64,000 nt of DNA from Tricholoma matsutake (taxonomy: Eukaryota; Basidiomycota; Agaricomycetes; Agaricales; Tricholomataceae): positions 10,478,001-10,542,000 of the forward strand of contig AP026541.1 in NCBI GenBank assembly GCA_026075535.2, written 5' to 3'. Both the position numbers and the translations under genes were made by a program. The notes under the pieces were generated by a model. The model saw only the letters and a list, made by a program, of their open reading frames with translations, searched no databases and was not told the DNA's origin. This document shows, in pieces, positions 14,714 to 52,410 of this stretch (positions within the stretch are counted from its first letter, which is position 1; the number at the start of each line of letters is the position of its first letter).

Positions 14714-15146
14714 TAAGGGCAACCTCAGCCTCTAGCAAAGGGAAATCCTAAGTTAAAATTATACTACATATTACAGGGATTGGAGGCGCACCTAGCAAAG
14801 GGAAATCTGAAGAGAAAACTCTGAGGACCCCTTTGCCAATGCCCAGTATATGTGAAGACTGCAAAAATCAAATAATAATCTAAAAATAGAAAAGGCAGAG
14901 ATAGGCAGATCAAGGCCGCTGAATGACATCATACCAAGGGGTAGATGTCAGAAGGGGTGCTCTGCCTCTAAATATAAAACTGTCAACATGCACAAACATG
15001 ATGGAAAGGGAAATTAGTAATAAAATAAGGAAAAATCATAGAAAATGAAGAATAGAAGGAAATAAAGTGAGGAAAATATAGGACAAACATAAAAAATAGG
15101 AGAAACACACAGGGCACCCCCCCAAGTCCCCCCTAGTCCCCTTACA
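14714..15146 (-). repeat. 3' LTR of gypsy C
   Basis: About 433 bp, nearly identical to the LTRs at 55648-56081 and 61389-61811. Read on the element strand it starts TGTAAGGGGACTAGG and ends GAGGTTGCCCTTA. A purine-rich tract (GAGAGGGGGTGA) adjoins its inner edge at about 15147-15160. Confidence 0.92.
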
Positions 15147-16498
15147 TCACCCCCTCTCTAAGATGCATTGCCCCAATGGATTTGAAATCCCATACAACCA
15201 AAGTCAGTGACTTGAATGTGATGTGGTACAGCAGTGTGCCGTCAATGGAATTCCTTGACTAACCAAGGGGCATTCACATTGGACTCTTCGACCCATGAGT
15301 TCTCCTCATACCTATAACCCTTCCAGTGCACCAAATACTGGAGTTTTCCTTGGCACAACCAGCTGTCCAAGATTGACTCAACTTTGTACTGGGGTTCTTC
15401 CTCAATCACTGTAGGTGGTGGTGGACATGAATGGCATCCTGGGAATGGATCTGGGGGAGCTGGAAGGAGTTTGACAACATGGAAGACTGGGTGGAGTCTG
15501 GACATGGAGGCTGGGAGGTGTAGATGATAGGCATGTGTTCCAACACACTTGACACTGGGGAAAGGTCCCAGGAAGCGATGAGCAAGTTTCTTGGATGGAC
15601 ACATAGTGGAGATGTCACTGGAGTCAAGGTAAACTCAATCACCAACCTTGTACTGAGGGGTCAGAGAATGGTGTTGGTTGTAAAAGTGCACCATGTCATC
15701 CTTTGCCTAAGGCTGCCTTTGCCTCCTCCAAGCTATCCTGCATGCATTCTGTGAACTCATTCACCATCTTGATGTGTGAGGGAGTTTGGCGAGGTTCAAA
15801 TCCCATGCATGGATGTTGTCCAGTGTCTAAGAGGAAAGGGGTCTGTTGAGTGGAAGCATGGACATGGTTGTTGTATCCAAACTTGGCCAAGGGGAGAAGA
15901 TTGTCCCAATTGTCCTGGCACTCATTGACAAAGATGTGGATGTACTGCTCCAGTTCCTGGTTGACTCACTCAGTCTGGCTGTCAGTGTGTGGGTGATAGG
16001 CAGACTAAGGCAGTTGAAGCAAGGAGTTTGATCCCCAGAAGTTGGTACAGCTCGCAAGTGAACTCTGCCATGAACTGAGGGCCACGGTCAGAGAGGAAGG
16101 CACCAGGAAATCCATGTAATTTCCACACATGGTGGAGATAGAGTTGGGTGGCACCAAGGGTGCTGACAGTTGTGTGAGTGGGAATGAAGTGAGTGTGTTT
16201 TCCCACTGAATCAACTGTGCACATCACTGCATCAAACCCATTCGACTCTGGCAACTCCACCACAAAGTGGACACTGACAACATCCCAATGACTCTGGAAC
16301 AGGAAGAGGGTGTAGCTCACCAATGGGTTTGTGATGACAAATCTTGGTGCATAAGCAAAGGTCACAAGTACAACAATACTGACCAATGAGTCATGACATT
16401 TGTGGCCACCAATAATTCCATGAGGTGAGCTCCAAGGTCTTCCAGTGTCCAAGATGACTGGCAATCTGTGAGTTATGGTGTTGGGATATGATGCGCTG
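15147..16498 (-). pseudogene. Gypsy C 3' half: integrase and chromodomain
   Basis: Starts abruptly at 16498 inside the integrase zinc-binding region (GCGC then ATCATATCCCAACACC). It runs through the DDE core (WDVVSVHFVVELPESNGFDA, then [13 protein letters not shown]), the FGYNNHVHASTQQTPF block, and ends in a chromodomain (VESILDSWLCQGKLQYLVHW, 15400-15250). In the core, SIDF of the intact copy has become SVHF, losing the first catalytic Asp. A segment carrying the TYHPQTDGQTERVNQE motif is damaged near 16020. The missing 5' half is at 47649-51962 on the other strand. Confidence 0.88.
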
Positions 16499-17335
16499 AT
16501 AGGTCCACCTTGTTGTTCAAGCTCGGAAAACACATCTACGATCATTGTCAAAGCTCTACAAACCCATACAAACCCTTCCGAAGCTCTACGAACCCCTCTG
16601 AAGCTCTACAAACCTCTACAAACCTCTACAAAGTCACAAGAATGCTTCCAAACTCTTTGCGACACCTTGAAATTCTTTGTATGCCTTTGGCCACCATAGT
16701 ACAATTCCCCCGAGCCTTGTACAGCTCAGGATATACACTTGGAACATCATCAAAGAGTTCCAAACCAGTATTGAGCAATATCGCAGTGATATCAGCCTTT
16801 GAACAAGTCCAATATTTCCTCAACTGACTTCGAAAATCATCGAACATTGAAAATTGACATTGGACACTATATCGCTATCCAAATAATCATCGCACACATG
16901 CCAGACATATTCCCTACCATTGTCGAACAATATCACACCGATATCGGGCCATGAACAAAGTCTGAAGAATCTTCAAAAATCTTCAAAAAACATTGAACCT
17001 TGAAAAACATTGTCAGACACAGTATTTCCTGTTCAAACAATCTTCGGATGCATGCTGGACACATGGGACACTATATCAAGTATATTGAACACATTTCGAC
17101 TGCATGTGCATGCATACAATCCGCTCGAAGCAGTTTCCAATCTTTTATTCAATTTATAACAAGGACAGTCCAGTTTTAGCTATTCTTTCTTATTATTTCT
17201 TCATCATGTGTTATATTCACCCCTTCTAGGCTCGCTTTATTGTTCTGATATACTTATATTGTCTTTTGCCTCGAGTTTTCCACATGTTTGCCTCATGTTC
17301 TCTAGCCTTTTTAGGTACTTTCTTTATTTTATATA
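16499..17335 (-). repeat. Copia LTR fragment (3' part) inserted in gypsy C
   Basis: Read on the minus strand, it begins in an AT-rich, TATA-like segment near 17335 and ends GAACAACAAGGTGGACCTATCA directly before the gypsy integrase. The same terminus (CAACAAGGTGGACCTA) closes the copia LTR at 39296-40297. The repeated CTCTACAAACC-type motif is shared too (16550-16630 versus 40140-40220). The LTR's 5' part is absent here and matches the piece at 51963-52410. Confidence 0.78.
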
Positions 17336-18253
17336 AAAAGATGTACTAGATACAAAGAAAAAGAAGAAAGTTGTTCTGTTGTCAAATCTCTCCAACCACC
17401 TCCACCCTTCAAGACATCCTTGTTACCAGACCATATGTAATCATCTCCATCTGTAATTCCACCATCAGATGCTACCTCTTCAACAGATTGTGAGTTGTCC
17501 ATTCCTCTGAGCTCTGGGTGTTGATAGATTGGTATGGTCCAATGCCAAATAACCTCATGCCAAAATTGCTTGGACAGAGGAGCAACCTCCTTGACAAGGT
17601 GTTTGCATAAATGATGTTGGTCATACTTCTGGTGCCCACATGAACAAGTCCAGTCTTCAATGTTTGTTTCATAGACTTTACCACTGACTTGACTATCCAG
17701 CAGCTTCCTCCAAGATGCCTTGAAATATTTTTGGTATATGGTTGATTGCTTTGACCGCTCCAGTCAATGACTGTCATTTAGAATTTCAGCCCGTGCAATA
17801 TATGCAGGAGTAACTTTGTGGATTAGCACCCAGACAAAATGGTCTAGTCAGGGTTGGGCAACTCGGTGAAGGTAATCATGTTTCAGCTGCCGCCAGAAAT
17901 TCTCAACATTCATGGTTGTTTGGAGATGTGAAATATATGGGGATGTTGATTGTGCCCAGAGACACCACATTTTTGGTGAGTACCAGCATGCCCACATGTC
18001 TCCTGCAGGCCACGTGTATGGCAGAAGTGATATATGTTGTAAACAGCTTCATGGCAGATCTTGTCTGGGGACCATTGTCCATCATGTTCCACAAATAGAG
18101 GGTGCTGACAAAAATGTTGTATAAATAAGTGCAGCAGTTGCTTGCAGTGAGGTGCAGGGCAGAAGACATAGTTGGGATCTTTAGATGTGACTTCCTCAGC
18201 TTCAAACATCAGTCAGGACCATCCTCTGCATCTTCACTTCCACCTCTCTCATA
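17336..18253 (-). pseudogene. MULE transposase, C-terminal part with SWIM finger
   Basis: Minus-strand Mutator-like transposase remnant. Readable blocks are DPNYVFCPAPHCKQLLHLF, HDGQWSPDKICHEAVYNIYH (18170-18030) and the ISGGS/FRRQLKHD-type segment (about 17900). A SWIM zinc finger follows with pattern WTCSCGHQKY...HHLCKHLV (about 17655-17590), then a tail ending near 17340. The SWIM finger (CxC...CxH) is diagnostic of MULEs. Stops and frameshifts are frequent. It continues upstream at 19602 on the far side of a hAT insertion whose 8-bp duplication is intact. Confidence 0.84.
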
Positions 18254-18261
18254 CTCATGAT

Positions 18262-19601
18262 TAGAGTTTGAAGGTCCAGTCCCTCAGACTGAGGACCAGA
18301 CTGAACCGGACTGGATTTCGAACTGGTCCAACAGGACCATCAGTCCCAGTTCGGGGTAGTCTCATAGCAGTTCGATCCTCAGTCCTACTAATTCTTAATA
18401 TGACATGAACTGGGTGGAGACCAGTTTGGACCAGTTTGGGATCGGACTCACAGTCCACCTATCCAGGCTATTCTATGTAATTTTATTATATATTATACTA
18501 GTTATGTATTAGGGGACAGAGGCCTGGGGGATTATAATAGTGAAATCTTGGGGGTTTATATACAGTACACTAGTTGTGCATGTTTGTGTTGTTTACATAC
18601 ATTTGTTTACAGTAAATGAACATGCAAACACACATCAATCAAAGGTGGTGCAGCTTTTTTGATTTTATTTTTTGTGATCCACCCATCACCACCACTACCA
18701 CATGTTGGCCCAAATGATGATTGCATCATTTGGGCCCTGCCATAAGTCTTTTGTTCATTTGTTTCTTTTATTCAACTAATCAAATACATTGTTTGGTTTT
18801 TTAGGAGCTATTCTACTGCTAACAATGGGTGGTGAAACCATGAGCATGCTAGGTAAGCCCCCCATAAACCTGCCATGTCACCACTAACAACAAACTGCCC
18901 CAGCCTCCCCAATGACACAGCACCTGCATCTCCTGCTATGAGCCACTGCTCACAGGGGAGATTGTGGGTGCAAGGATGAGAACGGCAACAACACAAGAAG
19001 GACATGACAATGACAATGACAATGCAATGATGGCAACAACAACGATGACCATGCAATGACAATGACCATGCAACAACAATGACCATGCAATAACAACAAT
19101 GATGATGGAACAACAACAACCATGCAACAACAACAACAATGCAATGATGATGACAACGATGCAAAGGCCCCCCTTGCTCAAAACACGAGACGATGGGGCC
19201 ATTTTGATGTTTTTTTTCTCTCTCTCTCCACTTTACTACTAACTACTATGTCATACCTCACAATGACAATGATGATGATGCAATGATGATGACGACAATG
19301 TGAGGGCCCCCCTCACTCAAGACATGAGATGGCGGGGATGTTTTGGTGTTTTTCTCTCTCTCTCCATTTTACTACTAACTACTAATGATATTTCATACCT
19401 CCACCCACTCACCTGAGATGCACCTGCCTCCAGCCTTGTGAGCCACTGCTCGTGGGGTGGATCATGAGTAGTTTTTTTAATTTTAATTATATTAATATGT
19501 ATATTATTTACATGTACATAATAGCTTGTAGGACCAGTCCGAACCTGCTAATGGAGTTTGATAGATAGTTAAATAAAATAGGACCAGACTTTAAAACTCT
19601 A
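18262..19601. mobile_element. Non-autonomous hAT, 1340 bp, duplication CTCATGAT
   Basis: Ends are TAGAGTTTGAAGGTCCAGTCC and, read inward from the right, TAGAGTTTTAAAGTCTGGTCC. The duplication CTCATGAT lies at 18254-18261 and 19602-19609. The interior holds a GGCCCAAATGATG...CATCATTTGGGCC inverted repeat (18706-18737), an intron-like GT...TTTTTTAG stretch, CAATGA/CAACAA simple repeats, and two GAGCCACTGCTC motifs (18940 and 19440). No transposase is seen. It splits the MULE. Confidence 0.93.
18975..19305. repeat. Simple-sequence tract (ATGACAATG / CAACAA)
   Basis: Degenerate trinucleotide and hexanucleotide repeats in two blocks, about 18975-19165 and 19258-19305, separated by a near-duplicate of a CTCTCTC...TTTTACTACTAACTACTA segment (19217-19247 and 19355-19390). 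Apparent long frames on the minus strand here are low-complexity artefacts. Confidence 0.8.
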
Positions 19602-20196
19602 CTCATGATCAACCTCATCCAGCAAGTCATTCTCTTCCCCTTCCCCATCCTCATTAGTGTTATTCAAATTGTCATCACTTTCAGAAATTTAATGGCTGGA
19701 CTATTTAGGAATAGGAACCAAGGAACGGACAATCCCATTAAGCTGAATAACAAGTCGAGGAGCAGTAGAAGTGGGTTCAGGGGCAGAATTTTGCAGTACC
19801 CCTCCAAGGCAAACAGTTACATGTGGTATAGCCTTTTCAGCTACATGAATATTCTGTTGTAAATGTTACAATTATAAATTTAAAAGAGCAAGGAGATCAT
19901 ACAATGTTTGCTTTTTTAGACTGAGCAACTGGAACAAAATCTTCATCAATCCAGTCAAACTCCCTCCATGCCTCCAAAACATCATAGAATTTTGGTCGCC
20001 TGCAAAGAATTGATAGTCTGGTTTTGATGGCCCGCAAGCAGTGCCAGAAGCAAAGCTGATGCTTTGCATTGAGATATACAGTCAGAAATGTGTTAATTTC
20101 TGAGACATCTTTTCAGTGAGTGTGATGATTGCCTTGACTTTCCACTTTTCATTGAAGTCCAGTAATAAACCACTCCTTTCCACCAGATTCTCCGTC

Positions 20197-20576
20197 TAGT
20201 GTTGCCACAGCTTAAGCTGACTTAAGCCAAGGTTTTTTGCTATCTTGTGAAATAAATTAAGTAATATTACCAAAATATTTGAGGAGCTAGATCCCATTAA
20301 AAGCCGAGGGGTCTCCTGCCAACTCTAAGCGATTGGAGAAGCCATTCCTGAGATATTTAAACGGCTTTGAAACAGCTCTCAAATGGCTTGGCTTGAGCTA
20401 TTTCAAAGCCACTTAAATATCTTGGGAATGGCTGCTCCGATCGCTTAGAGTTGGCAGTAGACCCCTCAGCTTTTGATGGGATCTAGCTCCTCAAATATTT
20501 TGGTAATTTTATGTAATTTATTTCCCAAGATAGCAAAAAATCTCGGCTTAAGTCAGCTTAAGCCATGGCAACACTA
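20197..20576. mobile_element. hAT-type MITE (family M1), 380 bp, duplication TCTCCRTC
   Basis: Ends are TAGTGTTGCCACAGCTTAAG and its complement CTTAAGCCATGGCAACACTA. Nearly the whole element is an inverted repeat around 20390. Flanks are TCTCCGTC (20189-20196) and TCTCCATC (20577-20584), differing only by a CG-to-CA change. A second copy is at 37820-38201. Confidence 0.93.
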
Positions 20577-20707
20577 TCTCCATCACTAGAATACAGGAGT
20601 AAGTAACCCAATGGACAACCTGATCCATAAACCTCTCCAAGTAAGGCATAAACCTCATAATTAGAGCCATTGGTGTTCTGATGATGTCCATAAACAAAAC
20701 CCAAGTT

Positions 20708-20961
20708 TTTTTTTTTTTTGGTAACTGGTTAGGGCCCGAAGCCCCCGGTCAACTCCGACTACACATAACATGCACGTCTAGGAGGACACTGGCCGGAGAG
20801 AATGCTTTTACGCACACCATCAGATGGTAGTGTGGGACTCCACTGTTTGTCAGCAATACCCACTAAACTCTCTGGGGGGGTCAGGGTTCAAACCAAGAGT
20901 GCAAGGGTATCCCCCTGAATGAGATGATGGAGTTAACCATTGAGCCATCTCGCCCCCCCCT
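20708..20961 (-). mobile_element. tRNA-derived SINE with A-tail and 14-bp target duplication
   Basis: On the minus strand it starts in a G run, then carries a pol III A box (TGGCTCAATGG, 20947-20937) and, about 43 nt on, a B box (GGTTTGAACCC, 20894-20884). A unique body and an A-tail (about 20720-20706) follow. The duplication ACAAAACCCAAGTT lies at 20694-20707 and 20962-20975. Box spacing, poly-A and a long target duplication are the signature of LINE-mobilised SINEs. No family name is assigned. Confidence 0.93.
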
Positions 20962-21029
20962 ACAAAACCCAAGTTCAACTTCGGCCATTCCCGAAAATGA
21001 CGTGTTGCGAAGAATCTGCTGGGTCAATA

Positions 21030-21317
21030 CTACGTTCAGTCATGTTTACCAGTTTACCCATGGATTGCTATCAATGAACATCGTTATCGATATCAATGAA
21101 ATGGAAAAATATTAATATATACAAGAAGATAAGGGAGATATACAGGAGAGAACTACCAGTCAAGGTAGAAAAAGTTAGAAAGACAATGTTAGGGGAAAAT
21201 GAGTCCGAGTCACGGTATCCGTTACTGTGGTTGTGTTGGTAACGGGCCTGATACACTCACCAGACGGTGTATACATCCCCAAATCCCGTAGATGGTGTTG
21301 AATAACTAACAACGCAT
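21030..21317 (+). promoter_or_regulatory. Upstream region of IML1 (288 bp)
   Basis: Short interval between the MULE terminus (21029) and the IML1 ATG. It holds no other gene. The AT-rich stretch at 21100-21130 could contribute to a promoter, but no firm element is recognised. The transposon end therefore sits immediately upstream of a nutrient-signalling gene. Confidence 0.4.
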
Positions 21318-24300
21318 ATGACAACTGCTTCACGAGCTGAATCTCAGCAGCCATATGGCCGTCGAAGGTCAAACACTGCCCAATCTATTCTGCGATCTAC
21401 ACCTGTCACACCTCTGAAATACGGAGATTGGAAAGTCCTCAATTCATGGGTACACGACACGAAGGAGTCTACTTCTGTGATTTTCAACCAGTCGTGGTGG
21501 CCTGGCGTTTCGGAAGGCGATTTGTTGAGAGTGGGGAGCTGCAGTTCGAAAGATCCTGACTTCGCATTTCTGTTCATAGTTCCGAAGGATGATGGTTGCG
21601 CAAAGCATCAACTGCAGGTATGTTGCAAGTAGTGAGTGCCCTTCGTCATTAGCTGATGTACCTGTTCTCCTTGCACACACCAGATCTCAATACCCAAACC
21701 AATCGCAGAGGCATTTGATCTGAGAAATAATTCTGAAGTCACTGTGACGAAGGTACTGCTCTGCATTTCGTTCTCGTTACTAAACGGAGTTCAGACAAAT
21801 TACAGGTAAAGGAGGATAACTGTGGGGCAGAATATGTGGAGCTTGTTTTTCAGGATCAGTATCTTGGTCGAAACGACATGTGGCGACTAGGAGAACATCT
21901 AGTTGGGCAGTGCGTGTATACGAACCAAGATATCACATTTGTCGGTAACATCGCTGCAAAGATCCAGAATATCTACATAAGCGGGAAAAATGCTAGTTCA
22001 TTCATTTGTTACTCATGACATCTGATTAATGTGTAGTGTTGTAGGTGTCTTCTGCTCGTATGACCCGTGCAACCAAAGCTATCTACAGGTCACTATCCGC
22101 GAAGGTGACCATTTTCATCCAGGTCTGTAATGAACTCTGGGAATTCACTGGCGACGGAGAGCGCTATAATGAAAAAATTGTCCATGCCTTCTTACCTACT
22201 CTCTTCGCCAAGTGGCGTCAGGCCGGTACAAATCACATAGTGACCATCGTTTTCATATCCCGTGTATTTTACGACGAGGCTGATGTGGACTACGCTGCGG
22301 GCCCTATGCGCCGCGATGACTACGGACGATGGTACAAAGATTTCTTCAAAGTCGTCACTGATCTTGAGGTCATCGACGATTGGAAACCCACTCTTGCCAG
22401 TCTGAAGAATTCTTTTTGGGATTTTCAGCGAGACATTCTTCTCACGCATCATTACCATCAAGCAACCAAGGATTCAGCCATTGGTCCACCTGCACAGGTC
22501 CGCCTCATTGGACGCATTTCCTTTGCACACGATGGCCCAATTTTGGAAGCTCTGAATCTTGCGCTTAACCCGACAGAAACTCATTACATTGATCGCTCCC
22601 TATCGTTGACAGGATCTATGATTATGCTGCTCACTCCTGGGACAGGCTATTTCCGAGTGTCGAAGCATCTCCTTCGTCTCACCACCACTCGGCTGCTTGA
22701 TCAAGGTTTCGGTCTCGATATGGTATCACTTGCGAAGCAACCCCTCCACCAAAGCCCCATCTTTAGTTTCCAGAGTGTTGACCCGGATCTTAAGGCTGAC
22801 GAGGGAAAGCCTGGACCAAAATCGATGGATCCCCTTTGGGCCTCCGTAGACGGTGATGTAAATGACTCTAGCAACAAGAAAACTTTCTGGTGGGTGCCAT
22901 TTTGGATCTCAATCTCGTTCTGGGAGACGCAGTTGTACTTGCCCTTCCGAGAAGACAGGTAAGATTTATGTTTAAGATCACGGAAGATGAGGTGTGCTGA
23001 CCATTTGTCTTAGATTTGTTGGTCGGGCTAAGATGCACCAGATCCAAATGCTAGGTCTTCTAGATTTCGATGTTGTCTCTAGCATCGAGATCCCTTTCCT
23101 GCCTGAACCTATCAATGTTTCTCCGGAGGTTCTTGGGGATGTTCCAATTTCCAAAGAGGAGGCAGATAAATTTGACATGGATATCTTTGCCCCCAAAGGG
23201 GGACCTCAGCTCCCGAATACAAATCGCAGCTCTGTGACATCACTAGGTGGTATAACGATTCGCAATTCAGAAAGGCATCGAAATTCTCTTATAGCGACAA
23301 AAATCCCCCCGATTGAGGAAAGCCCTAAACGAGTGATAGTTGATCTTCCTGTTGAAGATTCTCTCAGCAGTGTGGCAACCCCATCGTTCAGTGGACTAAG
23401 CACTTCCCCGTCGCAGTCTTCAATACACTCATTGCGGTCTACTATGTCTGCTACATCCGTAAGGGCACCACGCGATTCCTCCGCGCGGAGTACTCTGGCT
23501 AAGCTTGCGCCGTTATGGCTGTTCAGTCCTTTCAGAAGTGGACCAAGCGAACAACAGACGTCGCAAGTTTCTGCATCGAGCTCACCTAGCACGCCTAGTA
23601 CCCCAACTCCGACTCGGACAACTCCCCTCCCCCCAACAACCTCAACCTCAACTCGCGCGTTTACGCCCTCCAAACCGCCTCCAGCTGCTCAAGTCGGCCG
23701 TTCTCCCATGCCTATGGCCATTAAAGGAGCAACCCCGATTGTAAATCGTTCGAGTATTAGTTACACGTTCGAGGAAGATGGGCTCGTATCACAGCGAGCT
23801 TCGTACATTCGTCACTCTCCCATGAACACTCCACCAAGGGAAGAAGTAAATTTTGGGAAGCGCCGTAGCACGACGAGTACACACACTGCCCAATATTCTT
23901 CGCCATCTCCCGGAATGATGTGTAATCCATCCCAACCACAAACTTGTGTTTCACATTCACAGTCAACTCTTGCCCGTCGATGGCAGCACATGTACCCGCA
24001 AGTTCTGTACAAGCATCAAATCAAATGGAAGGCACTGACAGTACCCGTATGCTTGCCATTGACAGTGGAACAATTTCCCTCCGCTTCTGAGCTAGAGACC
24101 TCTTATGACGTCTTCTCGTACGACTTTGTCGTGGATCCGCACGAGATGTTTTCGTTCCTCGTCAAGCCGCCCACTGACGAAGACAATTTAGATGAATTGC
24201 GTCGTGCGTGGGCATTGGTTGTCATGCGAGGCATGGCTGCAGTACGATTGGCTCAGGGGTTCCAGTTCGTGCTGAGGCCCCCACAAAAGGCAACAAATGC

Positions 24301-26327
24301 AGAGGACAGAGGGGTTCTCCGGCGGACGAAGTCCATTTTGAAAGAGGAAGACCTGACACCGAAACCTATCGGCGCAGCAGACGTGTTGCCCTTGAATGCT
24401 GACAATGTCTATCTTATTGACCCGGTGTATCTGAGCATGACGAACGAGATCCATCAGATTTCTTATACTGGCGAGGCTATCCAAGTTCGGCGTTATGTGC
24501 GACGTATGCCGCCTCTGCGTTCTTTTGACTACCAGTGTCTTATGTGGCCTAAGCTTGGAGGCAAGTTCTTCCGTCGTTGGACGGATTCTTAAATAGCTAA
24601 CAATAATCGAGCACAGGCGGGTACACTGAATTGTCGACCACCTTCGCCCCCCACGGACTCGAAAATTACGGATGGAACCGGTATGTGCTTCAGTCATTGT
24701 TTCGAAGTGTTCATTCATCTCCTCGACAGCTTAGACATGCTGGTTGCTGGCTACGAGCACAACTTCAACGAATCACTCCGATATTGGCGAACCCGATTCA
24801 TCATTATCCCAACTATAGAACCTCCGACATCGACAACCGGCCCCTCCGGAGAAAAGCTTAATGACGAGGAAATCCGCATCTCGGGGATCGAAAAGCTCGC
24901 TGACCAATTCACCCGGCTACGCTGGCAGCCTGCAGAAGAACGGGCGAACCACCCTGCACCTCCTGTGCGATTTCTCCAAACGACGCTCGGTCCCGCCATG
25001 TGTGTACTCGACGCATCCCTAATGGACCAGCTGGAGCAAGTCAATGCTGCCTCATTACGCAAGAAGATGAAGAGTGAGAAGGACGTTGGGGATATGTCGT
25101 TGGCTGCGATCGCCAAGGCCATGCGAGAAGAGGACGGTGTGCCGATCAAAACCTATCAGTGGCATCATTCGCCGTATCCTGACTCGTTCATTGGATATGA
25201 TTTCGTGTCATGGCTGGTTCGCGAGTTCCGGGACGTGTCAACCCGATTACAGGGGGTGGAATTAGGGGTCAAGTTGATGGAACAAGGCTTGTTTGAGCAT
25301 TGTAGAGGACAACACAGTTTCCTGGATGGGTACGAATATTTTCTTCGTGTCATCTGTTTACACTATCACTGACTGATGTTTTTACGCTATAGTCACTATT
25401 ATTATCGGCTGAAGGGGGAGTACACTGTTCCGATGACTCCGAAAGGATGGTTTAGCAGGAGACACGCGGCTGAGGAATTGAATACGCGGTCTCTGTCCGG
25501 CCGGGCCAAAAACTTGAGTCCTCGTAGATCTACGAGAAACCGGTTAATTGTCAGCCAGAGTATGGTCATTGATATTGATCCTAACAAAGTAGGATTGAAT
25601 CGTCGTCACTACATTCACTCAAGACTCATGAAATAAATTCCAGAAAAGCGATCAGGCGGAAGCCGTTGTACTGCATCATGATATCATCCATAATCCCACG
25701 ACATGCTTCCACTTTGAACTGCAGTGGATCGGAACGACTCCGCGATGCATTGAAGACCTCATCCGGCAATGGAGCAAGCTCATCGAACGCCACGGCTTAA
25801 AGCTTGTTGAAGCCTACGTGACCCAGATTAGCGACATACGAGACCGCAACGCTTTCCAGTCCTGTTTTCCTATTCGCTTAGTTGTTCCACCTCCTGTCGT
25901 GCCAGACCTCGATAAAAGAGTACCAGAGGGAACGCAGACAGCACAATACTTTGAATATGCGCTCTTACTGCAATTTGGATACGTACTGGATGTTGAAGCA
26001 GCTTGGATGTACCCTGAGCAGATTGAGGTGATTTACTCATACCGGAGGTCACCATACCAGTACTCTCAGTTTGTGCACCACTCTGGGGCCGGCTTTGTCC
26101 AAGTCTTACGGGACGCTCAAGGTTTCTTGTTCCTAACAAATCGGCTGGTAGGTCCTGGTAGGGTAGGCCCTATGAAGACGAAGGACCGGCCGGGAGCAAT
26201 CGCTGACGAAATCAGGAAAGAGCTTCATAGCCTCTGCTCCGACAAGGAGGCACTGACGAGGTTTTACGACGAAGAGTTGGAGAAGTTGGAACATACGGTG
26301 GAAGAACCACCTCCATTGAGTATATAA
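21318..26327 (+). CDS. IML1: Iml1/DEPDC5, GATOR1 (SEACIT) subunit
   Basis: Vacuole-associated GATOR1/SEACIT component that restrains TORC1 in amino-acid starvation, acting with Npr2 and Npr3 on Gtr GTPases. Exons: 21318-21617, 21684-21752, 21806-21991, 22045-22958, 23014-24560, 24617-24680, 24730-25329, 25393-25588 and 25644-26327. They sum to 4560 nt, or 1519 residues. The N-terminal Iml1 domain spans about residues 40-490 (AKVTIFIQVCNELWEFTGDG, VTIVFISRVFYDE). A Ser/Pro/Thr-rich linker runs from about 560 to 785. The DEP domain is about 1158-1240 (FIGYDFVSWLVREF, GQHSFLDG), followed by the conserved C-terminal domain. Seven introns start with GT. Introns 3 (21992) and 5 (24561) read best as GC-AG: the fifth has GAG|GCAAGT, and only these choices keep frame and family sequence. 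The gene is CpG-rich and intact, and convergent with NAA20 170 bp downstream. Confidence 0.95.
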
Positions 26328-26496
26328 TTAGGTGTGAACGCGGTATAATTTGTAGTACTAGCTCTGGATACTTTTGAATACTTCTCTTCTCGTTATGAGA
26401 CATCGTGGGCGCTGACAAGCATGTCTCGTCCGTTAGCCCGTACTGATCGTCGGTTTGAATCTCGGGAGAGAGGTTTCCTCATATCTAACATGGCAA

Positions 26497-27150
26497 TCAA
26501 TATTTTGCCCCAGAGAAAAAGAGGGTCAACACACCAAAAGCATCCTCCTCGTCTCTCCCTCCCTTCCCTACTCCCAAATTCCCGTAATATTCTCGCACCC
26601 TGCGATACACACTGTACCCGAGCCCCTCATACATGTTTATCGCCACCAGATTGGCACACCGCACATACAGGTCAACGAAGAACCCCTTGTAGCTCTCGTC
26701 GGAAACCATCTCGAGGAGGTTCATCATTTTGCGCGCAAGCCCAAGTCGCCGGTATTCTGGCGCGACGGTGAGCGCAGTGACGTGACCATGCCATTCCAAG
26801 TTGATACCCTCGGCTTTTCCAATGACTGTATAACATCAAAATTAAGCATTGGTTAAAAAAGAAATGAGAAACTCACCATAACCCATCATGCGGCCGCTCG
26901 GCGATTCTTGCACGCAACAGAGATCAGGCCACCGGGACAAGTAGCTCAGATAGAAACCAATTCCATACTGTTACGTCCGACTGAGTGACGTCTTGGTAAA
27001 TTTCCGACTCGCAGCTTACCGTCTCTGTCCAGATGTCCAAATTGCTTTGTCGAAAAGAATGAAAATTAGGTGGAAAGAGAAAGGAAAGAGAAAGTACATA
27101 TTGTTGAATTTGAACATATCTGAGGCTCGAAAAGGACGTAGAACGCTCAT
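26497..27150 (-). CDS. NAA20: NatB catalytic subunit Naa20 (Nat3), N-alpha-acetyltransferase
   Basis: Acetylates N-terminal Met of nascent proteins starting MD/ME/MN on the ribosome, together with auxiliary subunit Naa25/Mdm20. Minus-strand exons: 27150-27098, 27044-27020, 26967-26877 and 26825-26497, giving 498 nt or 165 residues. The three introns are GT-AG and 51-53 bp. The start MSVLRPFRASDMFKFNN and continuation INLDIWTETYGIGFYLSYLS match the family N-terminus. The GNAT core has HVTALTVAPEYRRLGLARKM, with acetyl-CoA P-loop RRLGLA, followed by GFFVDLYVRCANLVAINMYE and LGYSVYRRVREYY. It is slightly shorter than the yeast and human proteins because the C-terminal tail is short. It looks intact. 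Confidence 0.96.
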
Positions 27151-28979: not shown

Positions 28980-29241
28980 TGTTGGAGCAGACTATATACA
29001 CTGCACAGGGGAAGAGACAACATGTTCCTTACAACCTACCTGGGGTTTAGTTAGACTTACAGCTAGGGGTTAGCAGAGGTAAGAACACTATATTCCTACT
29101 ACAGTACAGGTTCTCCTTATATACATAATAGTAAGGATATCACATGACTCCAGAGGAATATGCATATGAAACATGTATCAATATTGGTAATTAATGTGGG
29201 AGAATATGCACATGCAACAATATTGGTAATTAATTTCAACA
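28980..29241 (-). repeat. 3' LTR of the young copia
   Basis: 262 bp. Identical to the 5' LTR except for TG in place of CA within GACAACATGTTCC versus GACAACACATTCC. TG...CA termini. Confidence 0.95.
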
Positions 29242-29273
29242 CCCCCCCTCAAACTATAAAGTGCTCTAAGCAG

Positions 29274-30965
29274 CTAAGTTTGAACCTCGAAAGTAATTCC
29301 AAGAGAGTCTCTAAATTTCCTGAATAGGACGGCGCCAAGGTTCTTTGTGAACATGTCAGCCGGATTATCACTTCCAGGAATGAAAACGACTGTGACTTTG
29401 TCATTTTCTATGCATTTGTGGGTATAGTGGTAGCGAATGTCTATATGTTTGGTCCTTCTTTCCTGAACTGGATTTGATCCGATAAAGATGGATCCCTGAT
29501 TATCAGCGCAGATTGGTATGTGCTTCAGTATATATCCAAGTTCCTGGAATAAGGACTCTATCCACACTATCTGTCGACAAGTGTTGGAGAGAGCCATATA
29601 TTCAGCTTCTGTGGATGACAGTGCTACAGTTTTTTGTAAACGGGACTGCCAGCACACAATGCCACTTGCTAGAGTAGCAAAGTAACCCATTGTAGATTGG
29701 TGCTTGACAGTGTCAGCTGCCCAATCAGAGTCTGTGAAGGCCTGTAGCCCTTCAGATTTCTCTCCATCGTAGACTATGTTATATTTCTGGGTTCCCACCA
29801 GATAGCGCATGATGTACATCGCTTTGTCTAGATGTTCTTGGCTAGGATTAGCCGAGAATTGCGACATCCTGATTACCGCGTAAGCGATATCAGGTCACAT
29901 TCCAAGCATCAGATACAATAAAGATCCGATCACAGACTGATATTTTGATCTAAGTGCTGCATTTGGCATTGCTGTGTTTTCTGACGGTTTGTAACCAGTC
30001 GGGAGCGGAGTGGGGGCAGCTTTGGCATTTGTCATCTCGAACCTCTCGAGCACTTTGGCGAGATATTCAGTTTGATTGAGTTTGACTTTGCTTGCAGTCT
30101 GGGTGACGTGCATGCCTAAGAATTCCATGACTTTTTCAGTACTACAGCACTCCCAATGCTTCAGACAAGCATTCTTCTTTTCATCCACAAGTTTCTTGTT
30201 CTTCCCCATGAACAAGCCATCATCAACATAGACCAGCACAATAACAATGTTGGTCTTAGGATCCTTGTGTATGAAAATGCTGGCATCAGAGCTGGCGCGC
30301 ACAAACCCAATGGTGCGCATAAATGCCTCTAGCTCTTTCCACCATGCTAGTGAGGCCTGTTTAAGGCCATACAATGCTCAGCGTAAGCGCATTACTTTGT
30401 GCTCTTTTCCCTCAAGTCTGAAACTCTCAGGTTGATCCATATAGATCTCCTCTTCTAGTTTGCCATATAAAAATGCGGTTTTTACATCTAGACCAGTCAT
30501 ATACATGCCTTCTAGAGATACAAGTGCAAACATGAGGCGTATGGTCTCATAGCAGACTACTGGTGAGAAAATCTCATCAAAGTCAACACCTTCAACTTGT
30601 GAAAAGCCTTTTGCCATGAGTCTGGTTCGTTTTCTTCCATCTGATTTCACGGAGAAAACCCATCTATTTTTGATCGTTTTTTGATCATGTGGAAGATTGA
30701 TGATGTCATAGACTTGTCGCTTGTGAAGAGCCTCTAATTCTTCACGACAAGCCTGTTTCCACTCAAATTGCTGTTGCCGTGGTAGGCGCGCAATATTGTG
30801 AAATTGGTTTGGAACTTGGCTTATTTTGCTTGATGGTGTGACTGCTTTTGACAACAGCCAGCAAATAAGCTTATCTCCACTTTCCTTGGTTATCTTTTGA
30901 ATATAACCTGCTTCGTCCAGTTCCCCCATTGGGTGATCATGTTCTTGATTATTGGAATCGGGCAC
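29274..30965 (-). pseudogene. Copia reverse transcriptase and RNase H, two stops
   Basis: Starts around 30965 and reads WVFSVKSDGRKRTRLMAKGF, VEGVDFDEIFSPVVCYETIR and LDVKTAFLYGKLEEEIYMDQ. ALYGLKQASLAWWKEL leads to the catalytic YVDDGLFMG (about 30230). RNase H shows FTDSDWAAD (29730), ALSSTEAEYMALS (29610), CADNQGSIF (29510) and the KHIDIRYHYTH block (29430), ending EVQT at 29274. Two TGA codons interrupt it, just before ALYGLKQ (about 30376) and before PDIAYAV (about 29895). Both fit CpG deamination of CGA arginine codons. Otherwise all catalytic residues are present. Confidence 0.93.
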
Positions 30966-37819: not shown

Positions 37820-38201
37820 TAGTGTTGCCATGGCTTAAGCTGACTTAAGCTGAGGTTTTTTGCTATCTTGGGAAATAAATTATGTAAAATTACCAAAATA
37901 TTTGAGGGGCTAGATCCCATCAAAAGCCGAGGGGTCTCCTGCCAACTCTAAGTGATTGGAGAAGCTATTCCTGAGATATTTAAATGGCTTTGAAACAGCT
38001 CTAAAATGGCTTGGCTTTAGAGCTGTTTCAAAGCCATTTAAATATCTCAGGAATGGCTTCTCCAATCACTTAGCATTGGCAGGAGACCCCTCAGCGTTTG
38101 ATGGGATCTAGCTACCCAAATATTTTGGTAATTTTATGTAATTTATTTCCCAAGATAGCAAAAAACCTTGGCTTAAGTCAGCTTAAGCTGTGGCAACACT
38201 A
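37820..38201. mobile_element. hAT-type MITE (family M1), 382 bp, duplication TGACCRTC
   Basis: Second copy of the MITE at 20197-20576, with ends TAGTGTTGCCATGGCTTAAG and GCTTAAGCTGTGGCAACACTA. Flanks are TGACCGTC (37812-37819) and TGACCATC (38202-38209). It splits the transposase-like pseudogene in frame. Confidence 0.93.
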
Positions 38202-38690
38202 TGACCATCAATATGTTCGATCCAAAGCATGCAGTCTTGATTCCAGCCAGTTGGAATGGGGTAACTGGCAGAAGCAGATCACATACAACAAAGCCCATGT
38301 AGAAAAGAAACACGCTGGTGATGCAGTTTGACAGCAGAAGAAGGATGCACATGAAGAGATGATGAATAATCTGGTAGTCATCTTGAATGTCAAGGAGATT
38401 CATGAGAAAAATCTCAATGTTGCAGCTATTGATGCTCAGCTAGATTGGCATCATACATGGGGTTCAGAAGCATTATTAATCCCAGTGAAGAGTAAGTGTG
38501 GTGTGAAGTCATCTAGGCTTGAGATATTGCACCCAGCAGTTACCAGGTTCAACGAGAGTGGGCAAAAATTAGAGGGCTGTACATGGGTCAGTGCTGGGAG
38601 CATGGGTGCAGACAATGTGGCGATGGCTGTTGAGCACAGCGGGTTAAATTGGGGTGATGATACTGATACCAATATAGAGTAAAGCCTCCA

Positions 38691-44875: not shown

Positions 44876-47648
44876 AAGTCCAGTCTATTGGACCAAAAAA
44901 AGACCATGGACTGAACCGAACTGGACTGATGGCAACTGGACCATTGGTTGCGGTTGGCCTAACATTTTCACAAGTCCGGTTCACAGTTCATGTTAAGGGC
45001 AAAGGCTCAACTACTTGATCTAGTCGATGTCATTCGACAAGGTGCTTCCTCGACGAGTTGTTCGGCACTAGTTTACTCGGAGCATCCAATGTAAGATAGG
45101 TAGTGCACTCTAGCAGGGCTTCTGTGTAGAGTTGTTCAGGTTCATGCACTAAGGGGCTTCCTTAGTGGTTTCGAGTAAGTTCGCAAGTTGCAAGTTAAGG
45201 CTGTTAATTGCCTAGATCTAAACTAAGGACATCCCTACTACAAGTCGCAGTACTTATACTAGTAGGAAGGTCCTTATTGTCCAATCGAAAAGGTAGATGT
45301 GTATCAGGTATGAATAGAAACAATAAGCCTCATGCCTAACATGAGGCGTCTGATGTCATGGATCTGATGTCAAGGATCCGATGTCAAGGACATGCTGCAG
45401 CGCAGCATGTCGATCGTGAGAGTCTGACATCATGGACCTCATGTCAAGGGGCTGTCGTATCACAGCATGTGTGGGAATGGGTTCGGGTGCATGGAGTCAC
45501 CATGCATCAAGGGTGCCTTCCATGGGAAGGGGATCGAATGCATGCAGTCAGCATGTGTTGTGCATGTGTCTGGTGTCAAGGACAGTGCCTCCTGTCTGGA
45601 GGGGATCATTGGGTCGGTTGGGTCAGTTGGGTTCCATGAGTTACAAGGAAAATTGTAACAGTTCATCAGTGATAGGGCATCTCAATGGACTGCCCAAAGA
45701 CTGACCACAACTGGTTGTAGACTGGACTTCAGTTGCATCAGGCTTGCGAGGTATAAATATATGAATAAATGCTAAATACTTTTTGTAATAGTATACTTTA
45801 CAGACTGAGATAAATATTATTATATTACTGTTACTTATGGGTGAGAGGGCCCAAAGTATCAGTTATTTCATGGGTGCTTATATACCTGTGGCAGTGCATG
45901 GACCATTTGGTCATGCTTGTGCTCCCAAAAAAACAAAGTGGCACCATTTGACAGATGACTCCCATGATCACCAGCACAACGATGCACAACTCCCATGACC
46001 CTCCACCATGTTGCATTCAATGCAAACCACCACCTCAACCAGGCAACAGACAATAAATGACAACGACTGTCAAACAACAACATCAATGATGACAATGAAC
46101 CTCCTGACTCCCTCCCTCCCTATCCCGACTCCCTCCCATCCACCACAATTACCCATGGCTGCAAACATGCCATGTCATGCATATTCTACGCATTCAACAA
46201 CTGAAGCCCATGGCTCCAACACATAATAAGTAAGTCTTATTTCATTCTTTCATTATTCTTTTTACTAACATTGTTGTTTTCTTTTCTTATAGGTTTAAAC
46301 TAATGTGAGAACAGACCAGCCCCATGAATGACTCAACACTGACATCCAGCCTTGTGAGCCACTGCTTGTGGGGTGGATCATTGGTACTATTTTCTATGAT
46401 GACAGAGACAATGACAACAGTGACAGCGATGGCAACAAAGCATGCACATCCAGCCTTGCAAGCCCCTGCTCATGCAGTGGATTGTGGGTGTGACTGATGG
46501 GAAACAGCTGGGGACGAACAATGTGGGTGATGAATGGCGATGATGACAGGCTGCAAATGTGCCACGTCACACACATTCAACACCCTTTGTGCATGTTTGC
46601 ACCTGTAGCTAAGTCTTTTGTTTTGTTTACTGTTACTGTTTTAACTTACATGCTTTCTTTAGGCTATATCATTGTTCTTGCCCATGATGCCCACCTCCCA
46701 CAAACCTCCCACAAACCACAACCTGTCAAAATATGATGTGAGGGACTGGATGATGACAGGGAGCAACAATGAAAGGTATGCACCCCAACCCCCCCATCTT
46801 CCTGTCCCCACTGATTGCAGGCAACACCCCACCAGCTAGTGTTTGAAAGTCCAGTTCACGCAACTGGAAAAAAACTGAAACTGAACCGAACCGAACTGCG
46901 GTCCAGTTGGTTTTATGGTTGCAGTTGCCTCACATTTTTCTGGTGATCAGTTGTGGTTCTAATGATTGTATATTTATTTAAAACCAACAAAAACCAGTTG
47001 TAGTCGGTTGTAACCAGTTTATATACATACTATATACCTTACTATAGCTATATATAGCTAATATAAAGTGATAATAGGGCCATGCCCAAGGAAAGAAAAG
47101 CACAAAAAGTATGGGTTTATATACCTCAGGCTGCACATGGACCATTTGGTCATATTTGTGCAACCCAAACAAGAAAGTGGTGCCACTTTCTCACATCCAC
47201 AACCCACGTTGCCAACATCAACATCAACCACCACCTCCCTCATCACTGCCGCCACTGCTCCCCCCTTCCTCTGTGTCCTTCCACCAACACCACTCCATCA
47301 ACACCTACGTCCCCTATGTCGGATTGCACTGCCAAATGCCGCAAACACCCAAACTATGACAGATGTAGTTTGGGCCTCAAGTACAGTTTTTTTAATGTTC
47401 CGTTTTCAACTAACTAATGTTTTTCTTGTCTTTTTTAGGTTCTAACTATGTTTTAGCAACGAAACAGTGCCCATGGCCATCTGCTTTGCACCCACCCACC
47501 ACCGCTGCGAGCCCCTGCTCGCAGGGTGATAATGGGTCCCATCCTGGACAACACCACCACAGAACCAACACACCACCCACACCTCTGCTGCGAGCAACTG
47601 CTCATGGAGTGGATGGGGGTGGTGATGAACAACCAACAAAGGGCTCAA
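44876..47648. mobile_element. Two overlapping hAT relics with a solo LTR inside
   Basis: hAT-type left ends at 44876 (CAGC|TAGTGTTTGAAAGTCCAG) and again at 46837 (CAGC|TAGTGTTTGAAAGTCCAG), both followed by ACTGAACCGAACTG-type sequence. No matching right end was found before gypsy C begins at 47649. Interiors carry CCATTTGGTCATG blocks (45900 and 47145), intron-like GTAAGTCTT...CTTATAG segments (46230-46295), and GAGC-type palindromes at 46356, 46460, 47509 and 47592. No transposase was seen. Confidence 0.75.
44991..45660. repeat. Solo LTR, 670 bp, duplication GTTCA
   Basis: Ends are TGTTAAGGGCAAAG and GGAAAATTGTAACA, with canonical TG...CA and a short TGTTA/TAACA inverted repeat. The 5-bp duplication GTTCA lies at 44986-44990 and 45661-45665. 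No internal retroelement remains, so the LTRs have recombined. It is inserted within the hAT relic. An internal GATGTCAAGGA motif repeats at 45345-45450. The LTR family is not found elsewhere in the window. Confidence 0.87.
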
Positions 47649-50600
47649 TTTCCCTTTGCTAGAGGCTGAGGTTGCCCTTATATTAGAAAACTCTCCTATG
47701 GCCTGAAATTGTGAACACGCTGCCCAAGATAGGCAGGGACAGAGTGGACAATGTTTCCCAAAGCTCCACAGACTCCCTACACACCATTCCCAACAGTCCC
47801 GCCTTTAGTGCGCCACCATTTTTGCCAAACACACCCCCTAGCAACATGGACACATCAGAGCACCTCAACACGCTTGAAAGTGATGTTACTGGAATATGCA
47901 TGCAAATCAATTCACTTAAATCTATGATCGAAGACTTCATCAGAACCCTTCAGACTAGCTCCATGACCAATATTCCCCCTATTGCGACTCCAAGTGCACC
48001 CAACAATGACGTGCCACCTAACACGCCCACTAAGGAGCATGCCCAGATCAAACTGTCTCCCCCTGCCAAATTTAATGGTGTGCATGCACAGGGGTGTGCA
48101 TTCCTTAATTCCTGTGAGTTGTACATCAGTCTCCAGTCCCATCAATTTGTCGACGAGGCTGCAAAAATTTATTGGGCCTTCACATACATGAAATCTGAAT
48201 GCACCTATCTCTATGTGGACTGTATTCTGCACCAAACTAAGGAGCTTGGTTCTCTATCTTTCTCCACTTGGGGTGACTTTCAAGCAGAGTTTGTATGCCA
48301 CTTTTGTCCCCTCAATGAGCGCCACCAAGCAGTGACATGGCTTGCCTCTTACCATCAGGCACATCAATCCATGGATGACTATATTAATGAGTTTAAGGAT
48401 TTGGTGGACATGGCAGGATATGGGAGTGGGCTACCAGTTGTGGTGAACTTCCAACGGGGCCTCAATCGAGAAATTTAGGACCAGATTGCACAGATGTTGG
48501 AAGGGCACCCAGTGGACAATGATATCTATGCTTGGTATGAAGCTGCTTCACTCTGTGATGAGAACCAACTCACAAATGTGGTGTTTAATGCTGCATTCCG
48601 TGCTCCAACTACCACTCATGCACCCTACACCTTTAATTGAACCCTTCCCCACCATAACCCCTTTCCTGTCCATCAGACTCCCGCACCCACCATCAATGTC
48701 CTGGTACCAATGGATGTTGATGCAGCCCACAGCCGTGCACATAGGTTGGATCTCTGCTACTGCTGTGGGGAAACTGGGCACAGGGCCAGAGTGTGTCCCC
48801 ATCATTAGGATATCCACATGCTCACCCCCGAGGGGTGAGATGAACTCCTCCAAGACCTGTTGGTGCTTGTAGACGTTGAGGAAGCGAAGGATCAGGTTGC
48901 AGAGGAGATCAAGTCAGAAGTTGTAGAGGAGCAGGATTTTTCTATTTGCAGCAAGTGAATCATATGCCCTCACTGCCTGTCCATAACCACTTTGAAGTTT
49001 TGTCAGTTGAATCCCTGGAGAATGAATCTATTTCCATAACTGTTCCCCTCTCTGACCCTTCGAAGTTTGCTAAAGATGTACCTGCTCTTCCCATCTCTCC
49101 CTCTGCTCCATGCCCCAAAATTAAATCATGGGAGTGCAAACTACCATGCAAATATATTGTTGCATCTAGGGAAGCACAAGGGTTTTAGCCTAAGTGTAAT
49201 AGCCAAATTTCTGCTACCAATAAAAATGTCCTACTTCTAACCAGTTGTTGAACTCAAAATCTTTATCAGACATTCTTCATATGCTTAGCATTAATATTCA
49301 CATGTAGCATTATGCAAGAACATATAATTTCTACCTGTTAAAAATAAAAGAAATATATTATCCCCTGCAAACTCCAAGGTTTTCATTACTTTGAACCCTT
49401 GGTGTTTAACCCATGGGTTTTGTACAACACTTTGGGCAGTATTGGTTCAGAAGGCATTCTGTTGGGTTTGGCCTTTGGAAGCAATCTTGACAGGGTTTCT
49501 ACCTATCCTTTTTCTTAATGCATTAAAAGATTTGCTGTTGAATTGAATTCATAATTTACAAAATCATTTTAAAGTTCTCAAAACCCTTGAAAACACTTGT
49601 GCTTCCCTAGTTGCATCCACTCCCTCTACACATTCCTTGAATCTAGCAATTGAACTACAGACTACTGACACTGGACAGATACTTGGTGTCTCTGCACTCC
49701 TGGACTCTGGTGTGACTGGTCTCTCCATCGATGTGCATCTCGCACAACAACATCACCCACTCACTCTCACATCCGATACCTGTTTATAATGTGGATGGGT
49801 CCCCAAATAAAGCTGGTGCCATCCAAGAGGTTGTAGACCTGGTCCTCCATTAAAAAGATCATAGTGAGTGTGCCCTTTTTGCTGTCACTCAATTAGGGAA
49901 GCAGAAGGTGATTTTGGGCATATCCATGGCTTTGAGACCATAACCCAGAGGTCAACTGGCATACTGGGGAGGTTACAATGAGCCGGTGTCCATCCCGCTG
50001 TCACACTTGTTTCATGGAAGCCAGGCAAGAATGTCATGGACAAAGGGCCTCAATACGACGTACTCAGAAGTGTTGTGCTGGACCCTTGCCTATACCTGAA
50101 GTGGAGTTAGAAGGGGTTTCCGATCTGATGTCAGACTCAGATGATGATAAGGAGGAGCCAGAGGAAGTGGAGGAAGGTGATCAGATCTTCTACACTGCAA
50201 TTTGTCCATTGCACGAGGTGTGTGCTACATCAAACATATCCCAATGCCTTCCTGAGGCCTTCCACAAAAACAATGCTGCTAAATCCTCTACTGATTCCTT
50301 GCTTCCTCATCTCCATGAGTTTGGGGATGTGTTCTCCAAGGAATTGTTCGACTCTCTCCCTGTGTGCAAGCCATGGGATCATGTGATCAAACTCACCCCT
50401 GGTGCAACCCCTTCATCCTGCAAGGTCTCCTGAAGAACAGCAACAGCTTGACCAGTTTATTGACGAGCACCTGGCCTCTGGACATATTTGACCATTGAAG
50501 TCACCCATGGCCTCTCCCTTTTTCTTTGTCAAGAAGAAGGATGGCTCACTTTGACCAGTTCAAGACTACAGAAGGCTCAATGACATCACAGTCAAAAATT

Positions 50601-51962
50601 GCTACCCATTACCTCTCATCTCCAAACTTGTGAACCAGCTCTGTGGAGCCCAATCAATACTTCACCAAGATCAACATCCATTGGGGTTACAATAATGTGA
50701 GGATAAAGGAGGGAGATGAGTGGAAGGCAGCCTTTCATACCAACCGTGGTCTTTTTGAACTGCTCGTCATGTTCTTTGGCCTTACTAATAGTCCTGCCAC
50801 CTTTCAGACCATGATGAACGACATCTTCCACAACCTCATCCTTGAAGGCATTGTTTGTATCTATCTTGATGGCATCCTTGTCTTCACTTGCACGGTTGAA
50901 GAGCACCATCGCATCATGTGCCTTGTCCTAGAACAACTTCAATGGTACAAACTCTACCTTCATCAGGACAAGTGCAAATTTGAGAAGACCAAGATCGAGT
51001 ACCTCGGCCTGATTATCTCAGAGGGTCAGGTGGAGATGGATCCTATCAAGGTGAATGGGGTCACGGCTTGGCCGACGCCCACAAACAAGAAAGAGGTGCA
51101 GTCTTTCCTGGGCTTCATCAATTTCTATTGGTGTTTTATCAAGGATTTCTCACATCATGCATGACCACTGTTCGACTTGACAGGAAAGGAGGCATGGAGG
51201 TGGGATAATGCACAACAGGAGGCATTCAAAAAGCTTAAGGAGATGGTCACTTCTGCTCCCATTCTTACCTTTGCTGACAATTCACAACCCTTTTCATGTA
51301 GAAGCCAACAGTTCTGACTTTGCGATGGGTGCCATGTTGTCTCAGCAGTCTCTGGAGGACCAGAAGTGGCATCTTTTTGTGTTCTACTCCAAAAGCCTTA
51401 GTGTTGTAGAGCAAAACTATGAGATCCATGACAAGGAGATGTTGGCAATAATGCATGCGCTTGAGGAGTGGCAACACTTCCTTGAGGGTGCCCAACACAA
51501 GGTGGAAATTTGGATGGATCACAAGAATCTCAAGTACTTTATGACAGCCAAGAAATTGAACTGTCGTCAAGCTCGTTGGTCCCTGTATCTATCCAGATTC
51601 AACTTCTCCTTGCACCACCATCTGGGTTGCAGCATGGGGAAGATCGATGCTCTCTCCCAATGTGCAGACCATGGGGATGGCAGCGATGACAATCAAAACA
51701 TTGTGTTGTTGCAGCCAGACCTGTTCACCATTTGGGCACTGGAAGGCATTGCACCCCAGGGCAAGGAGCAGGACATCCTACACAACATTCATTGTGCAAA
51801 CCATAGCGGTTTACATGAGGATGTTGTTGCCCATGCTGTTAAAGAACTGAAGAAGGGATCTGCCCTTTCCTTGTGTGTGGCAGAGTGGGCTGAAAAGGAG
51901 GACTTGTTGTATTTCAGGGATCACATCTATGTCCCCAATGACCCAGACCTTTGCCGGCGCTG
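47649..51962 (+). pseudogene. Gypsy C 5' half: LTR tail, gag, protease, RT, RNase H
   Basis: Begins with the last ~36 bp of the 5' LTR (CCCTTTGCTAGAGGCTGAGG), then gag (47711-48478) and a damaged zinc knuckle (LCYCCGETGH, about 48750). The protease LLDSGVTGLSID (about 49695) is split by a MITE at 49167-49609. RT reads [18 protein letters not shown] and CIYLDGILVFT (50855), where the catalytic YLDD has become YLDG. RNase H (HVEANSSDFAMGAMLSQQ, 51290) and the integrase start follow, ending PNDPDLC plus two Arg codons at 51962. A TGA stop at 50552-50554 replaces an Arg codon before PVQDYRRLN. The missing 3' half is on the minus strand at 14714-16498. Confidence 0.9.
49167..49609. mobile_element. 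hAT-type MITE, 443 bp, duplication GTTGCATC
   Basis: Ends are TAGGGAAGCACAAGGGTTTT and AACACTTGTGCTTCCCTA. The duplication GTTGCATC lies at 49159-49166 and 49610-49617. Removing it restores the gypsy frame seen in the intact copy (KYIVAST then PSTHSLNLA). Confidence 0.94.
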
Positions 51963-52410
51963 ATGATGCTCAACCTGGAAACCCAAACAAAACCCACAAA
52001 ATGGCTTCGGATGGTATAACACGAGTCAGAGGAAGGATATGAGGCCCTCTAGATGTCATCTGTCAGACTGACTATCAAATAGTCATAAAACAACTGCTTG
52101 TCAAAGCAGTTCGAAGCTAAGAGAATGTGTTTCGAGACCTTGCAATGATTTTTGAGATGTCACAATATTTTTTGAGATTTTTTTGAAGAAGTTTCGAGGA
52201 ATTCCGAGTGCGCAAATATGTTCAGATGCAAGATCAGGGGACTAGACGAGTAGTAGAAGTGAAGAAAAGGCTAATCAAGGAAAGCGAGAGCGAAAATAGC
52301 ATAATGTGAGGAATTTTGAGGAATTTTGAGGGAGTTTAGCATAAAACACCAAACTTCAGACTGAATAAGACTAAACCGAACTCTCAAATCACTGTGATCT
52401 GGGAGGAAGA
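51963..52410 (+). repeat. Copia LTR fragment (5' part) inserted in gypsy C
   Basis: Starts TGATGATGCTCAACCTGGAA, with AACCCACAAAATGGCTTCGG and AACACGAGTCAGAGGAAGG matching the copia LTR at 39296. It is cut near 52410, roughly before the TATA region, where a hAT element begins. Its lost 3' part corresponds to 17335-16499. Confidence 0.8.

Follow-up and report, generated by a model that had tools for sequence, protein, structure and literature searches.

How two complementary halves of a gypsy retrotransposon, each capped by part of a long terminal repeat (LTR), may have come to stand on opposite strands about 35 kb apart is the question raised by a stretch of 64,000 nucleotides, hereafter the window, from chromosome 4 of the mushroom Tricholoma matsutake (assembly TMA_r1.1, positions 10,478,001-10,542,000), which was compared with the whole genome of 161,040,721 bases in 13 contigs. 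TMA_r1.1 is described as a telomere-to-telomere assembly of the species, with a heterozygosity of 1.05% (PMC10211490). The complementary split of the gypsy and of the LTR, noticed in a first-pass annotation of the window, is confirmed, and the best explanation of the locus as a whole, to which a probability of roughly 0.8 is given, is that both elements were divided by an end-joining inversion of a segment of about 35 kb, with a loss of sequence at the distal site. An ordinary end-joining inversion with a deletion at one breakpoint is the most likely form of the event, and, among the alternatives considered, none accounts equally well for the division of an LTR at a single bond into halves that lie on opposite strands.

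The comparison standard for the gypsy was a complete copy in the same window, at 55,647-61,806 on the minus strand, of 6,160 bp and with LTRs of about 420 bp. The 3' part of the split element, including its 3' LTR (about 14,711-15,131), occupies 14,711-16,496 on the minus strand and carries a GCGC target duplication at 16,493-16,496; in alignment, 14,711-16,498 corresponds to 55,647-57,430 of the complete copy with 94.3% identity. The 5' part, read as the other portion of the same copy, occupies 47,648-51,960 on the plus strand, with GCGC at 51,957-51,960, and its positions 47,648-51,958 correspond to 61,421-57,427 of the complete copy in three blocks of 86.7-90.8% identity. The two halves, about 35 kb apart on opposite strands, meet with an overlap of 4 bp near 57,427-57,430, which bears out the earlier claim that they are adjacent parts of an intact copy near 57430, without a wide overlap; the duplication, previously put at 4-5 bp, is real and is 4 bp long (GCGC). 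The reverse transcriptase and RNase H domains were found in the plus-strand half by Pfam, and the element is marY1-like by its size (6,160 bp, LTR about 420 bp) and these domains; marY1 itself is given as about 6 kb long, with an LTR of 426 bp (PMC10627285, PMC10211490). The plus-strand half is interrupted by an insertion at about 49,167-49,609, and of the 5' LTR that belonged to it only about 36 bp remain, beginning at 47,648, a further truncation. The otherwise complete copy, for its part, contains a direct duplication of 117 bp at 60,209-60,440.

The LTR inserted in this gypsy, about 1.33 kb long, begins with TG, ends with CA and has GCGC directly outside both of its outer ends. Its start half lies at 51,961-52,414 on the plus strand and starts with TGATGATGCTC, and its end half lies at 16,497-17,373 on the minus strand, ends with ...CCTATCA and is cut at about 17,371-17,374. 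For comparison with uncut copies, the end half was used as a query against the genome, and the best 40 of 2,680 first-look candidates were scored, the window itself among them, so that the counts are lower bounds; from these places, 29 other loci were cut out, giving 30 end-half matches longer than about 700 bp, with the shorter partial matches dropped. In all 30 copies the start half is followed directly by the end half in the same orientation, at a spacing of -3 to +7 bp, the former stopping at what corresponds to 52,410-52,415 and the latter beginning at 17,366-17,375, even though the start half is only partly alignable in some of them (in one, L021, by its last 44 bp). The tiling of one LTR by the two caps, as first proposed, is thus borne out, while the breaks, then placed at 17,335 and 52,410, fall at about 17,373 and 52,414 by the alignment of copies, and the break said to lie near the TATA region is about 35-40 bp upstream of a TATA-like stretch. 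Flipping about 17,374-52,414 realigns the two parts of the gypsy, those of the LTR and the GCGC duplication to an accuracy of a few bases, which supports the proposal that flipping would restore a gypsy carrying a solo LTR.

The nature of the inserted sequence was considered through its copies. Those with both ends found (n=25) measure 1,285-1,465 bp, the outer TG and CA not counted, and the 4-bp flanks of 24 copies were read by eye (L005, whose end is altered, was excluded): the target duplications are exact in 9, have one difference in 6 and have 2-3 differences in the other 9, against 0.65 exact repeats expected from mismatched pairing of flanks. This excess, together with the TG...CA ends, shows the insertion to be a genuine LTR-type one, and the element of the window itself shows both marks of a solo LTR, namely the TG...CA ends and a direct target duplication. 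The label "copia" given to it earlier is unproven, the resemblance to the element at 39,296 being confined to the ends (76 bp at 85.5% and 230 bp at 79% in alignment); a Pfam scan of two open reading frames (ORFs) of that element gave no match.

The partner breakpoint, which is an addition to the account of the first-pass annotation, lies in DNA transposons. The cut end half of the LTR is followed by a fragment of a Mutator-like element (MULE) at 17,374-20,690 on the minus strand, composed of blocks D (17,373-18,232), C (19,735-20,158) and B (20,595-20,678), and interrupted by other repeats at about 18,260-19,553 and 20,192-20,585. In two relatives, L041 and L044, the shared sequence extends by another 804/853 bp beyond the point where the MULE of the window is cut, and the class of this fragment rests on L041, in which the MULE transposase domain PF10551 was detected (E 1.8e-10). 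In the joined MULE stretch of L071 and L044, whose overlap was not found, a piece of about 23 bp is counted twice, and distances across it are overstated by about 23 bp. A MULE terminal inverted repeat stands beside block B at 20,962-21,043 on the plus strand, beyond a SINE-like insertion (SINE, short interspersed nuclear element) at about 20,700-20,961, which lies between 14-bp direct repeats (ACAAAACCCAAGTT) and sits at the inner edge of the terminal repeat. On the other side, the cut start half of the LTR is followed by a miniature inverted-repeat transposable element (MITE) of hAT type, 0.9 kb long, at 52,414-53,329 on the plus strand, from which the outermost 5 bp (TAGGG) and the 8-bp target duplication on the left are missing. 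The family has terminal inverted repeats; its left ends start with TAGGGCA(C/T)GG in the four other copies fetched (4/4), and both copies fetched with two ends have target duplications of 8 bp, which we take to mark the MITE as a hAT element, the group to which Ac belongs; the copy of the window keeps one side only, CACTGTAT at 53,330-53,337, and this sequence recurs once in the window, on the opposite strand at 3,623. The host of the MITE is the right MULE fragment (53,330-54,575, minus strand), which comprises block A and the 5' terminal inverted repeat; two ORFs in its region gave no Pfam match, and L080, a close relative, has a MITE-free site.

The junctions themselves were read by eye. 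The left one (17,372-17,374), from the LTR end half to the MULE fragment, reads CAGAACAACTTTC, and the right one (52,413-52,416), from the LTR start half to the MITE, reads GATGACATGGCAC, while uncut LTR copies at the break point read, for example, GATGACAAC or GATGACGAC. Each junction shows about 2 bp of microhomology (CA at the right one), and BLAST between the two 2-kb breakpoint neighbourhoods gave no match longer than 13 bp, a combination that points to end joining and not to recombination between copies. From the split elements and the junctions we infer the original orientation, the mechanism of end joining and a single event. The proposed history would begin with a marY1-like gypsy on chromosome 4 that received an insertion of an LTR element, now a solo LTR, with the GCGC duplication; later, a double-strand break would have arisen inside the LTR and one or more about 35 kb away in MULE/hAT sequence, and end joining with about 2 bp of microhomology would have connected the ends crosswise, so that the segment between them, with IML1 and a GNAT gene, was inverted. 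The distal site would have lost 5 bp of the MITE, one of its target duplications and, from one MULE piece or more, the 3' end.

The number of breaks is where this reading has its nearest competitor. After the flip of 17,374-52,414, the left MULE piece faces the MITE and the right MULE piece head-on, an arrangement that would be natural if two converging MULE copies had stood there and the sequence between them had been lost. As a variant, one MULE may have been cut at two points, between blocks A and B and between block D and the 3' end, in a three-break event whose remaining break fell in the LTR; the piece from 17,374 to about 20,690 would then have moved with its strand unchanged, and only about 20,690-52,414 (31.7 kb) would have been inverted. 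Blocks A (right) and B-C-D (left) each occur once in the window, are complementary, and have the same strand and order as in L041, L051 and L055, and the left terminal repeat has its outer bases (TCAATA...TTCAG) in common with the right one and with close relatives, all of which favours the variant; however, the putative target duplications outside the terminal repeats match at 5/9 positions at the expected offset and at 6/9 at best, other copies (L082, L084) have the inner portion of the left repeat at their 5' ends as well, and the same picture would result from a pair of MULE copies that underwent a deletion. The motif in the inner terminal repeat, tried as 3'-end-specific support for a single MULE, was dropped for its presence at these 5' ends. 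The variant is thus possible yet doubtful, and the two-break model is judged about twice as likely as the three-break one. A narrower form would place the breaks at the end of the hAT MITE, perhaps through cleavage by hAT transposase, between two blocks of the one MULE that carried it and in the LTR 30 kb away, with end joining of all three shuffling and flipping the segment at once. This form appears unlikely; if true, it would represent a transposase-triggered local complex rearrangement in a mushroom.

An error of assembly at the joins of 17.4 and 52.4 kb might be suspected in a genome with 71.6% of repeats, assembled from degraded DNA with a HiFi read N50 of only 10-11 kb (PMC10211490). 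However, both joins link different sequence families, have about 2 bp in common and occur exactly at a single place each in the genome (the 23-mer of the left junction is found at a single place at up to 3 mismatches, and the right junction at one exact place and 4 further ones with 3 mismatches each), so that at the joins themselves no long repeat would mislead an assembler. In addition, separate assembly of two samples gave chromosome-4 contigs, A11 and B8, that were aligned, as the published description states, this locus not having been viewed in either (PMC10211490). A join error is accordingly held to be very improbable.

Still less credible is a chance complementarity of two unrelated half-elements, produced by independent LTR insertions at a target hotspot, although the site itself gives this idea some substance. 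At L087 (G000:C12:1702200-1706200, chromosome 12), an uninverted marY1-like copy that exemplifies the undisturbed arrangement of gypsy and LTR, a related but different LTR (about 1,220-2,204) has inserted at the identical gypsy base and is bordered by GCAC on either side, so that the insertion base may be a preferred LTR target. The uninterrupted gypsy site is found at 727 places at up to 1 mismatch, at least 100 of them exact, and 43 exact GCAC sites are among those with 1 mismatch; the nearest relatives of the two gypsy halves also differ, when the best 40 of about 1,800 candidates are scored for each. Against this, chance would require that two LTR copies had been broken at an identical bond (to about 5 bp in 1.33 kb), one retaining only its start and the other only its end; the main weight of the argument is carried by the single-bond cut within the LTR, whose halves are complementary and stand on opposite strands. 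Two candidates were set aside at this site: GCGC as a marker of a single source copy, being a common form at this gypsy site, and L088 as a third insertion, its LTR-like start lying at a different gypsy position.

Ectopic (non-allelic homologous) recombination between inverted copies of an LTR or a transposon is the least probable of all and was rejected for inverted LTRs, for despite the transposon sequence at both breakpoints and a 70-bp inverted repeat within 1.3 kb of them, that repeat is off the breaks, their neighbourhoods (2 kb per break) share 13 bp at the longest where long inverted homology would be required, and what is divided is a single LTR, not a pair of copies.

Several points weigh against the end-joining inversion and have to be kept beside it. 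The orientation is deduced from the split nested elements of one genome and is to that extent provisional. The second site is flanked on both sides by MULE/hAT sequence of ambiguous original order, so that the event may have had three breaks and not been a clean flip. The gypsy halves differ in their identity to the same complete copy (94.3% vs 86.7-90.8%), and the best 40 genome matches of each half have no locus in common within 10 kb; either half is 93% identical to its best other copy among the 40 scored. The comparison of nearest copies appears uninformative, neither proving nor excluding one source copy for the halves, because the copies lie at almost equal distances and the scoring covered only 40 of about 1,800 candidates. 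The insertion at L087 makes the position of the LTR in the gypsy weaker evidence than it seems. Lastly, the inverted repeat of 70 bp (83% identity) joins 18,707-18,772 with 52,850-52,917, at 1.3 kb and 0.4 kb off the breaks, with which it does not coincide.

Two genes lie inside the flipped segment, as had been proposed, and both are distant from the breaks. IML1 (22,045-26,327, plus strand, bounds taken from neighbouring ORFs) has the N-terminal Iml1 and DEP domains; its ORFs 22,045-22,962 and 24,683-25,372 match Pfam, and 22,994-24,592 and 25,818-26,327 give no match there. The second gene, with an exon at 26,500-26,835 on the minus strand, encodes a GNAT acetyltransferase, its more specific name "NAA20" being that of the first-pass annotation. 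Apart from these, a copia-type element at 28,980-34,637, with gag and integrase domains, is probably a recent insertion, because its flanking 262-bp repeats are 99.2% identical. Near-palindromic repeats, each aligning with its own reverse complement, were observed at 20,192-20,585 and 37,815-38,210, which belong to one family, and at 9,078-9,473, 14,408-14,686 and 63,734-63,862.

No publication on this locus was among those listed by a literature search, which is far from proving that none exists. The kind of event is well known and ordinary for repeat-rich genomes: simple end-joining inversions with breakpoints in repeats arise by the crosswise rejoining of two breaks, with short microhomology and small losses. 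The event proposed here has these features too, with the losses at one breakpoint, while the difference from the usual cases is that the uninverted state is deduced from the split nested elements of one genome, without an outgroup. The Galileo inversions of Drosophila buzzatii likewise have transposons at both breakpoints, but they are described as involving two opposite copies of one element, exchanged target duplications and ectopic recombination, whereas the search of the breaks considered here revealed neither a common element nor homology (PMC2775673). The rearrangements by alternative transposition of Ac/Ds, as characterised in PMC3470690, resemble the present case in that one break is at the end of a hAT-type element; unlike them, it has this break 5 bp inward from the MITE terminus and its counterpart within an unrelated LTR, where no second hAT end was found.

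The chromosomes of T. matsutake and T. bakamatsutake are reported to be separated by multiple inversions; in the passages considered, that comparison is of chromosome scale, without breakpoint sequences, and the word "breakpoint" occurs 0 times in its main text (PMC10627285). The present case suggests that at least one inversion of T. matsutake arose by end joining inside transposons and not by recombination between copies. A related method is REANNOTATE, which infers rearrangement after insertion from fragmented nested elements, also where repeated hosts have an LTR nested at one and the same position. Segment duplications among LTR elements are flagged by it and non-collinear fragments modelled separately, an inverted split not being among the kinds described in the parts of that account considered (PMC2672092). 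Here, such a split shows that the nested elements of one fungal genome rich in repeats can preserve the trace of an inversion down to the base, without an outgroup, and the same test, opposite-strand halves that tile at one bond, is applicable genome-wide.

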